Assembly: GCA_029936965.1 (NCBI GenBank)
Contig: JAPYRG010000015.1
Coordinates: forward strand, 1-56,705
DNA length: 56,705 bases
Source: Fidelibacterota bacterium
GTDB lineage: Bacteria; Fidelibacterota; Marinisomatia; Marinisomatales; TCS55
Reading direction: 5' to 3'
The position numbers and the translations under genes were made by a program. Below, in pieces: positions 50,349 to 54,748 of this stretch. Under the pieces are notes generated by a model. The model made no database searches, was not told the origin of the DNA, and saw only the letters and a list, made by a program, of their open reading frames with translations. The first letter of the stretch is position 1. Each line of letters begins with the position of its first letter.

Positions 50349-50410
50349 TTTAATTACTTAGTAAGTTTTTTCTTATCAGAATATATATTAGTAGTTAATA
50401 AGTTTTATTA

Positions 50411-53404
50411 ATGAAAACGGTACAATTTACACACGCAGACAAACTAACGTTACAGGATTTAATTTTTCATCGTATACATGAAATATTGCTTGTTGCAAGT
50501 CCATATGACTCATTTGTTCTAGAAGAAGATGGACGATTAACTGAACAAATATTACATGAATATATGGGTATGAATTTTAGTAATGCTCCTCGAGTCTGGC
50601 AAGCATCTACTGCCGCAGATGCTTTAACTATGCTTTCAAGGCAAGATTTTGACTTAATTGTTGTGATGATGAGAATTGCAGATATGGATCCCATACTTTT
50701 TTGTTCAAAGATAAAAGAATTGTATCCACAAAAACCTGTTATTCTACTAGCATTTGATGAATCAGAGATAAAACAATTGCCTGAAGAATTTCAAAAATCT
50801 TCTATTGATAACGTTTTTATTTGGTCTGGAAATGCAAATGTTTTACTGGCTATTGTAAAACTACTTGAAGATAAAATGAATATTAAAAGAGATATTAAAA
50901 AAGCTGATGTTCGATGTATAATTCTTATTGAGGATTCTCCTAGATATTATTCTCTTATTTTACCAATGATTTATAAAGAAATAAGTCATCAAGTCAAAGA
51001 AATGGTAGATAAAAGTGCTAGCGATCATGAAAGATTGTTATATATGCGGGGACGACCAAGAATTCTACTAGCAAGATCCTATGAAGAAGCAGAACGATAT
51101 TTTAAGCGCTTTCGAATGAGCACACTAGGTATCATTTCTGATATTAGTTTTCCAAAAAAGGACAAGCTTGATAAGAACGCAGGTGTAAAGTTTGCACGCT
51201 GGGCACGTTCAATTGATCCAAGCATACCAATTATGCTACAGTCAAAACATAATAAAAACGCTAATCTTGCCAAAGAAGTACAAGCTCATTTCTTATATAA
51301 AGATTCTCCAGCACTACTCAGAGAATTGAGAGATTTTGTCGTTAGCAACTTTGGATTTGGTGATTTGATTTTTCGAACACCAAAAGGTAAAGAAATAATT
51401 AGAGTTTCTGATTTAAACGAATTAGTTAATGCAATTAAAAGTGTCCCGGAGCAATCATTGCTTTATCATGCAAAAAGTAATCATTTTTCTAATTGGTTAG
51501 CTGCACATGGATATCTTGGTTTAGCATCAAAAGTGCGTCCTATAAATTATGCTGACTTTAAGGGTTCAGTTGAGCATCGAAATTACTTAATCGAGCTAAT
51601 TAATAATACAATTCAAAATCTCAAGGCTAGACAAGTAGTTGAAATGCAGCGTGGTAAATTTGATCATTCAAAACGATTTATACAAATATCTGGGGGGTCA
51701 TTAGGAGGTAAAGCAAGAGGATTAGCATTTGCTCAAAAAATGATTCGATCTTCAAATATAAGAAAAAGCTATCCAGATGTAATAATTAATATTCCACATG
51801 TTGCTGTTATTGGAACAGATTCTTTCGATGAGTTTATGAGAGATAATAATTTATGGAATGATGCATTATCTAATAAATCTAATAAGCAAATAAATAATAG
51901 ATTTATTAAATCAACTTTCACTAAGTCTTTAATAGAGTCACTTAAATTATTCATTAAATCAGTAAAGTATCCCTTGGCAGTACGGTCTTCAAGTCTGCTA
52001 GAAGATTCTCAATATCAACCTCTTTCAGGGATGTATGCTACGTATATGCTTCCAAACAATCAACCTAAGGCCAAACAAAGACTAGACGATTTAATTACTG
52101 CAATAAAACTTGTATATGCATCTACTTTTTATCAAGATCCTAAATCACTTATAAGCAGATCTGTACACAGGATTGAAGAAGAAAAAATGGCTGTTATATT
52201 AATGGAAATGGTTGGACAAAGTTATAATGATCGTTATTATCCTTCTTTTAGCGGAACTGCTCAAAGTTTTAACTTTTACCCTATATCATATATGAAAAGA
52301 AATGAAGGAGTAGCTCATTTAGCGCTTGGATTGGGACGTACAATTGCAAATGGCGAAAAATCACTGCGGTTTTCACCAAAATATCCAGGAATACTACCAC
52401 AATATTATTCTATTAAAGCAACTATTGATAGCTCTCAAAATTCTTTTTATGCAATGCGATTAAAAGGTAATAATTCTTCATCTTTAAAAAATGAAGATAA
52501 AAACTTATCTTCCTTTAACTTGAAAATAGCTGAAAAAGATGGATCATTAAAATGGTCTGGCAGCGTAGTCTCTAATGAAGATAATATTATTAGGGATACT
52601 TTATCTCAGAATGGAACTAGAGTAATTACTTTTACCCCCATATTGAAATGGTCGATGCTTCCCCTTGTTGATATATTGAATGATCTATTAGAAATGGGTA
52701 AAGATTCTCTTGGATGTGAAGTGGAAATAGAATTTGCTGTCAATATTTTTGAAGATCAAAATAAAAGTCCCGAATTTTCACTTCTACAGATTAAACCTAT
52801 GGTTATGGGTGGCTCGAGAGAATTAATTAATATGGATAATGAAACATCAAAATCAATATTATGTAATAGTAAAGTAACATTAGGCGATGGGTTTATTGAT
52901 AGCGTTCAACATATTGTTCTTGTTGATCCAAAAAGATTCAGATCTGCAAATACGAAAGCAATTGCTAAAGAAATTCATCAATTTAATAATATAATGGTAA
53001 ATAAATCCCCTTACATACTTGTAGGTCCAGGTCGATGGGGATCTGCTGATCCATGGTTAGGAATACCTGTAAGCTGGGAACAAATAAGTGGTGCAAGTGC
53101 AATTATTGAAATTGGAATTAAAGATTTTCCAGTTGACCCTTCCTTTGGAAGTCACTTTTTTCAAAATGTTACTAGTATGAGATTGGGATATTTTACTATA
53201 GATAATAACTCTAAAGATGAATCATTTGATTATAACTGGCTAAAGAAACAAAAGGTAGTTAAAAATAAAAAGTTTACTACCTGCTATAAATTAGAACGAC
53301 CTTTGCGAATTAAAATTGATGGTCAAACTGGCAATGGAATCATATTGAAACCTAAAACAATAGATATAGAACCGATGAATGAGCAAGAAGCCAGTGGAAT
53401 ATAA
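50411..53404 (+). CDS. PEP/pyruvate-binding ATP-grasp protein fused to two receiver domains
   Basis: A 997-residue cytoplasmic protein. Residues about 25-155 form a receiver-like domain where the phosphoacceptor site reads VVMMRIADMD, so the Asp is lost. Residues about 165-310 form a second one that keeps the acidic pair (LIEDSPRYY), a candidate phosphoacceptor Asp near 243 (GIISDISFPK) and the Lys (LYKD). From about 420 comes a PPDK-N ATP-grasp part: ISGGSLGGKARGLAFA and AVRSSSLLEDSQYQPLSGMYATY. GPGRWGSADPWLGIPVSW lies near 871. No phosphohistidine swivel domain or PEP-binding TIM barrel is seen, so it is not a complete PPDK or PEP synthase. Reaction unknown; regulation by phosphorylation is inference. 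Confidence 0.85.
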   Translation: MKTVQFTHADKLTLQDLIFHRIHEILLVASPYDSFVLEEDGRLTEQILHEYMGMNFSNAPRVWQASTAADALTMLSRQDFDLIVVMMRIADMDPILFCSKIKELYPQKPVILLAFDESEIKQLPEEFQKSSIDNVFIWSGNANVLLAIVKLLEDKMNIKRDIKKADVRCIILIEDSPRYYSLILPMIYKEISHQVKEMVDKSASDHERLLYMRGRPRILLARSYEEAERYFKRFRMSTLGIISDISFPKKDKLDKNAGVKFARWARSIDPSIPIMLQSKHNKNANLAKEVQAHFLYKDSPALLRELRDFVVSNFGFGDLIFRTPKGKEIIRVSDLNELVNAIKSVPEQSLLYHAKSNHFSNWLAAHGYLGLASKVRPINYADFKGSVEHRNYLIELINNTIQNLKARQVVEMQRGKFDHSKRFIQISGGSLGGKARGLAFAQKMIRSSNIRKSYPDVIINIPHVAVIGTDSFDEFMRDNNLWNDALSNKSNKQINNRFIKSTFTKSLIESLKLFIKSVKYPLAVRSSSLLEDSQYQPLSGMYATYMLPNNQPKAKQRLDDLITAIKLVYASTFYQDPKSLISRSVHRIEEEKMAVILMEMVGQSYNDRYYPSFSGTAQSFNFYPISYMKRNEGVAHLALGLGRTIANGEKSLRFSPKYPGILPQYYSIKATIDSSQNSFYAMRLKGNNSSSLKNEDKNLSSFNLKIAEKDGSLKWSGSVVSNEDNIIRDTLSQNGTRVITFTPILKWSMLPLVDILNDLLEMGKDSLGCEVEIEFAVNIFEDQNKSPEFSLLQIKPMVMGGSRELINMDNETSKSILCNSKVTLGDGFIDSVQHIVLVDPKRFRSANTKAIAKEIHQFNNIMVNKSPYILVGPGRWGSADPWLGIPVSWEQISGASAIIEIGIKDFPVDPSFGSHFFQNVTSMRLGYFTIDNNSKDESFDYNWLKKQKVVKNKKFTTCYKLERPLRIKIDGQTGNGIILKPKTIDIEPMNEQEASGI

Positions 53405-54748
<1,344 letters not shown>

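Follow-up and report, generated by a model that had tools for sequence, protein, structure and literature searches.

An open reading frame from a Fidelibacterota bacterium raises the question of what a PPDK-type ATP-grasp protein does when it carries two receivers in front of its ATP-binding part and ends before any PEP-binding part. The frame lies in the window, that is, the whole stretch of 56,705 nucleotides that was analysed, and its host genome is 2.14 Mb in size and 96.7% complete. The protein and its first four parts are laid out as follows.

50411..53404, plus strand: REC-REC-DUF5752-PPDK_N-GSHFF protein, an intact frame of 997 aa with an ATG start and without internal stop
50474..50881, plus strand: receiver 1, about residues 22-157, placed by Pfam Response_reg, residue counts in 47 relatives and the model
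50906..51352, plus strand: receiver 2, about residues 166-314, with an intact site and tandem-receiver Foldseek matches
51140..51142, plus strand: codon of D244, predicted phospho-acceptor of receiver 2, invariant in 47 relatives
51398..51652, plus strand: DUF5752 stretch, residues 330-414 (Pfam 24.1 bits, cut-off 23)
51698..52816, plus strand: PPDK_N ATP-grasp domain, residues 430-802 (Pfam E 5.3e-32, 111.8 bits, cut-off 27)

A sequence-only reading of the frame had described two receivers, one of them degenerate, followed by PPDK_N, and Pfam, the AlphaFold model (pLDDT 82 for the whole chain) and the residue counts in the 47 relatives all agree with it. That reading was right but incomplete, as it missed DUF5752, a C-terminal histidine domain (H915, 73 of 73 cores) and a recurrent glutamate dehydrogenase (GDH) neighbour. 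Of 54 loci detected in other genomes, from several phyla, 51 keep the layout over almost the whole chain, and it is therefore not a chance arrangement; near-identical relatives in L001 and L004, with 93-95% identity to the protein, place the window in Candidatus Neomarinimicrobiota. DUF5752, which separates the receivers from the ATP-grasp domain and may be a linker or sensor, is matched at E ≤ 0.01 by 35 of 50 members of the family. The family is a widespread but uncharacterised, putative signalling enzyme. A phosphoglycerate kinase gene, belonging to a minus-strand PGK-TIM run, is divergent from the 997-aa gene, with 62 bp (50349-50410) between the two.

The residues expected of a response regulator, namely an acidic pair, an Asp, a Ser/Thr and a Lys, are all present in receiver 2 and are not all present in receiver 1. 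E174, D175, D244, S278 and K297 of receiver 2 are kept in 47 of 47 relatives, which bears out the Asp/Lys set noted earlier. Receiver 1, to which Pfam assigns Response_reg at residues 42-117 (E 2.1e-8), has lost the acidic pair; its acceptor position, already read as lacking Asp, is M86 and mostly Met or Thr among the relatives, and an invariant Trp, W138, replaces the Lys. Since the same losses occur throughout the 47 relatives, the degeneracy is a trait of the whole family. In other proteins a dead receiver works as an adaptor, and receiver 1 is likened to such cases. The AlphaFold model supports tandem receivers, and its Foldseek matches include structures with two receivers in a row, PleD among them (E 8e-8 to 1e-5).

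The ATP-grasp site was compared in 73 cores covering four architectures (~1000 aa with receivers, ~585 aa as core alone, ~790 aa and ~1070 aa). GGK434, R525, E774 and Q793 occur without exception in the cores that extend over these sites, and position 795 is Arg or Lys. When rifampin phosphotransferase of Listeria is aligned by HMMER, R525 falls on its Arg117 and T544 on its Thr136, by position arithmetic on the 5fbs chain, and K434 belongs to the same GGK motif as Lys22 of that enzyme. Replacement of Lys22 abolishes the activity of rifampin phosphotransferase, and replacement of Arg117 or Thr136 abolishes both phosphotransfer to rifampin and resistance (PMC4844700). Because K434, R525 and T544 are kept, the ATP-grasp site looks competent as judged from its residues, and the alignment with rifampin phosphotransferase that had been proposed from the sequence gives retention of the ATP-binding residues. 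In profile searches this part comes closest to models of PEP synthase-like proteins, PigC/RedH and rifampin phosphotransferase. Its best structural match in Foldseek is HpeI (E 8e-10), and PPDK (1kbl) is matched with an E of 1.7e-7.

What follows the ATP-grasp domain has no match to any Pfam family (residues 800-997), and Pfam detects no PEP-binding TIM barrel in the protein, whose chain stops at residue 997. Conservation over the last ~180 residues is as high as in an active site.

52820..53362, plus strand: undescribed C-terminal domain GPGRWGS/GSHFF, residues 804-984, with no Pfam or PDB sequence match and a confident model
53024..53044, plus strand: GPGRWGS loop, residues 872-878, with G872, G874, R875, W876 and G877 conserved in 73 of 73 cores
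53153..53155, plus strand: codon of H915, proposed phosphohistidine and the sole His conserved in all 73 cores

The domain also carries an invariant Glu, E900. Modelled in isolation it reaches a pLDDT of 89 and a pTM of 0.88, with H915 at the N-terminus of a predicted helix.

Is this domain a cryptic swivel? The idea was suggested by the GSHFFQNITSLGI-to-TSHAAIVARELGI spacing and by the order of the secondary-structure elements, and was set aside when hhalign, Pfam, PDB profiles and Foldseek gave it no support. The predicted order, b-b-a-b-a-b-[His]a-b..b-b as read from the secondary-structure string, may resemble that of the swivel fold. Pfam found the PEP-utilizers (PF00391) swivel in none of 47 C-terminal domains, and the PEP-utilizers domain in no family member. 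The hhalign comparisons with PPDK swivels of the same phylum, and with a mixed set of 70 swivels from PPDK, PEP synthase-like proteins and enzyme I, were not significant (E 0.16-0.19 in either case). Foldseek with the isolated domain gave a best E of 0.03 and no swivel protein in the top 50, and neither the PDB sequence profiles nor a viral structure library yielded a match. The earlier statement that swivel His domain and PEP barrel are both missing agrees with Pfam, and a complete swivel, sought in the C-terminal 450 residues, was matched by neither Pfam, profile-profile comparison nor Foldseek. The domain can thus be described as a swivel analogue by position and, as far as sequence and model tests reach, as a putative new domain. 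H915 is the obvious candidate for a phosphohistidine on the strength of its conservation; since swivel homology of the domain is not detectable by profile or fold, it could serve another purpose.

The sequence-only reading had further suggested that the protein is the ATP-grasp half of a pair whose swivel domain is encoded elsewhere in the genome. HpeHI, with its ATP-grasp and swivel parts as separate proteins, shows that such a division exists (PMC12167813). However, the sole canonical swivel domain of this genome sits inside its intact 897-aa PPDK, and the 997-aa protein has a conserved His domain of its own. A separate partner protein was rejected on the first ground, and the pairing seems to us hardly credible. 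As the protein has a C-terminal domain of its own bearing the single invariant His, there is no need to postulate a swivel partner. The broader proposal, signal-dependent phosphorylation of an unknown partner, remains the most suitable type of explanation, given the intact receiver 2 and ATP-grasp residues.

The GDH gene next door is the strongest clue to function.

53405..54745, minus strand: glutamate dehydrogenase, convergent with the 997-aa gene with 0 bp between (Pfam ELFV_dehydrog E 3.3e-95)

It is the only ELFV_dehydrog_N gene found in the genome (a single PF02812 match). Clustering of the genes around 54 relatives identified GDH as a recurrent neighbour of the family, found in Desulfobacterota, Ignavibacteria, Phycisphaerae, Acidobacteriota, Caldiserica, Bacteroidota, Calditrichota, CSSED10-310 and Gemmatimonadota; eight of these neighbours were confirmed as GDH by Pfam.

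The linkage was tested in three independently sampled phyla, with genomes picked regardless of gene neighbourhood. The C-terminal domain is present in 98 of 120 Marinimicrobiota, 17 of 99 Bacteroidota and 18 of 99 Desulfobacterota genomes. In Marinimicrobiota, GDH lies within 10 kb of the family gene in 66 of the 89 genomes that have both genes among the matches listed, with a median gap of 1.3 kb. The corresponding counts for genomes carrying both are 16 of 17 in Bacteroidota and 13 of 18 in Desulfobacterota. As a control, genes of canonical swivel proteins (PPDK, enzyme I) come this close to any of the GDH matches listed in none of 27 Marinimicrobiota genomes, a set that leaves out G019, whose GDH position is not among the matches listed. 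Close linkage is absent in 23 of the 89 Marinimicrobiota and 5 of the 18 Desulfobacterota genomes, in some of them owing to contig ends, which hide some neighbours in these draft assemblies. Thus in at least three phyla the family gene usually adjoins a GDH gene.

The arrangement of the two genes is not uniform. In Marinimicrobiota 49 pairs are convergent, 15 co-directional and 2 divergent, all 16 pairs in Bacteroidota are co-directional, and GDH is upstream of the family gene in some loci and downstream in others. The variable orientation suggests that proximity was selected repeatedly and is not one frozen arrangement. Arrays occur too, in which a run holds two family genes together with two or three of GDH: with CT for the family gene bearing the C-terminal domain, the order is CT-GDH-CT-GDH in L199 and GDH-CT-GDH in L198 and L200. 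The receiver-less core of ~585 aa also adjoins GDH, and the association therefore belongs to the catalytic core. In one Desulfobacteraceae locus (L045 10330-13269) the family gene and GDH are directly followed by glnE, encoding GS adenylyltransferase. From the usual position of the gene next to GDH in at least three phyla, the family protein probably controls nitrogen assimilation. The linkage is a functional association and not proof that GDH is the substrate.

Several variants of the family and its surroundings were seen in other genomes. In L053 3199-8041, L119, L121, L123, L124 and L125 a two-gene unit consists of a 585-aa ATP-grasp/GSHFF core followed by a ~1070-aa paralogue, which begins with a sensor-like part, contains the same core and ends in a nucleotidyltransferase (Pol-beta/NTP_transf_2) domain; this unit adjoins a GDH of the 428-aa type. 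Next to the family member at L194 10920 (G259:C6, Desulfobacterota) is a GDH that, at ~602 aa, exceeds the usual length by about 150 aa. The Prolixibacteraceae (Bacteroidota) members L040 4696-9581, L041 and L042 are extended at the N-terminus by ~440 residues, which hold three sensor-like repeats that have no Pfam match, and a receiver-LuxR gene stands between family gene and GDH. One Marinimicrobiota family is represented in the sample by eight reduced genomes of 0.8-1.0 Mb (G006, G023, G032, G060, G083, G098, G102 and G115); all eight keep GDH but are without the C-terminal domain.

We favour, tentatively and at somewhat less than an even chance, a receiver-gated ATP-grasp phosphotransferase of the PPDK type that regulates GDH or GDH-dependent nitrogen assimilation. 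The reading draws on the ATP-grasp site, H915, the invariance of receiver 2, the GDH linkage and the precedent of VadK, which is compared below. An orphan histidine kinase would phosphorylate D244 of receiver 2, with receiver 1 and DUF5752 acting as structural relays, and this phosphorylation would gate the enzyme. The ATP-grasp domain would bind Mg-ATP at K434/R525/T544/E774/Q793, hydrolyse it in the dikinase manner (AMP + Pi) and pass the phosphoryl group to H915, the C-terminal domain standing in for the canonical swivel. The phosphohistidine would then modify or control GDH, which would be the acceptor rather than a co-regulated neighbour. A bolder version, in which the family is a new phylum-spanning class of ATP-grasp protein kinases, with GPGRWGS/GSHFF in place of the swivel, gating by receivers or sensors and covalent control of GDH, is doubtful.

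The same parts could instead make up a non-canonical two-component histidine kinase, in which phosphate would go from the ATP-grasp domain to H915 and on to the protein's own receiver 2 or to a separate regulator of GDH transcription. In favour of it, receiver 2 is invariantly intact, and in the Bacteroidota members the three sensor-like repeats are accompanied by a receiver-LuxR gene, which lies downstream and ahead of GDH. The contig of the 997-aa gene is also without a classical histidine kinase: as the sequence-only reading had it, none is adjacent, and in a HATPase_c search of the genome all matches fall on other contigs. Yet those HATPase_c proteins could serve the receiver, most loci have no adjacent regulator gene, and the 585-residue core adjoins GDH even though it has no receivers. 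With His-to-Asp transfer itself hypothetical here, we consider this alternative unlikely.

Another alternative, to our minds just as unlikely, is a small-molecule dikinase or ligase, comparable to rifampin phosphotransferase, HpeHI or PigC, whose substrate would be a metabolite linked to glutamate or 2-oxoglutarate; in this case the acceptor would be bound by the GPGRWGS/GSHFF domain, and the receivers would tune the flux. The profile relatives of the ATP-grasp part and its top structural match, HpeI, speak for it, the C-terminal domain is conserved as an active site would be, and biosynthetic genes (an aminotransferase and a 2-hydroxyacid dehydrogenase) follow in L037. But the recurrent neighbour is GDH and not a defined pathway, two receivers and the sensor-like variants suggest regulation, and an acceptor-binding domain of known type is not present. 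Finally, the protein might carry out no phosphotransfer at all and be a regulatory scaffold or ATP/ADP sensor that binds GDH according to receiver state. The degenerate receiver 1 and a tail without a recognisable enzyme fold are consistent with this; the invariance of the ATP-grasp residues and H915 across phyla and architectures would be unusual for a pseudo-enzyme, and we regard the scaffold as quite improbable.

GDH is one of the main points at which ammonium enters metabolism. If the receiver-gated phosphotransferase is the right reading, a receiver-controlled ATP-grasp enzyme would be a dedicated GDH regulator in Marinimicrobiota, Bacteroidota and Desulfobacterota, in which no dedicated GDH partner protein was found in the literature searched. 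It would constitute a nitrogen-assimilation switch with a role analogous to the control of glutamine synthetase by GlnE/GlnD, and the reason for the many uncharacterised PPDK_N proteins would become directly testable. No description of the C-terminal domain was found in Pfam, NCBIfam or the literature, and no report of the GDH link of the REC-PPDK family in the literature; the papers searched were chiefly freely accessible ones, and an earlier report is possible for either. The REC-PPDK fusion itself is already known, since Galperin et al. 2018 named Bacteroides-like REC-PPDK response regulators in passing (PMC5847659). These are probably the same family, and the part of that paper on REC-PPDK mentions neither the C-terminal domain nor a GDH link.

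The protein shares with PPDK and PEP synthase the PPDK_N domain with its ATP site and catalytic Lys, Arg, Glu and Gln, but has neither their PEP-utilizers swivel with the TSH/TCH histidine nor their PEP barrel. With rifampin phosphotransferase it shares the counterparts of Lys22, Arg117 and Thr136 (PMC4844700), whereas the rifampin-binding domain and the canonical swivel (His825 there) are missing and receivers are added. The NCBIfam model RIF_Ptrans_rph (NF041857) does not rank in the top 25 for the 997-aa protein, and in the distant paralogue of L053 it scores just 25 bits against a cut-off of 999 bits. As the defining parts are absent, the protein is not a PPDK, PEP synthase or RPH. HpeHI, a two-component aromatic dikinase whose HpeI gives the top structural hit for the ATP-grasp part, differs in carrying its swivel on a separate subunit, HpeH, and in using a small-molecule acceptor (PMC12167813).

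The closest tested precedent for the proposed mechanism is VadK (Rv1127c) of Mycobacterium tuberculosis, which combines an ATP-grasp part with a His domain, autophosphorylates its histidine and interacts with enzymes encoded beside its gene (PMC13400623). Like the 997-aa protein, VadK joins PPDK-type ATP binding to a histidine-bearing domain and has no pyruvate/PEP-binding domain (PMC13400623). VadK is a short protein of ~50 kDa with a PPDK-type kinase domain and a proven catalytic His422, and its linked enzymes are those of the methylcitrate cycle (PMC13400623). In contrast, the 997-aa protein has two receivers and DUF5752, its linked enzyme is GDH, and its C-terminal domain is unrelated by sequence or fold search; a VadK-type PPDK kinase (swivel) domain was not found in it by hhalign or Pfam. 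Over its second half it is, judged by sequence, not a VadK homologue. If the preferred reading holds, the family would join the PPDK phosphotransfer engine to a non-swivel histidine domain, in parallel to VadK.
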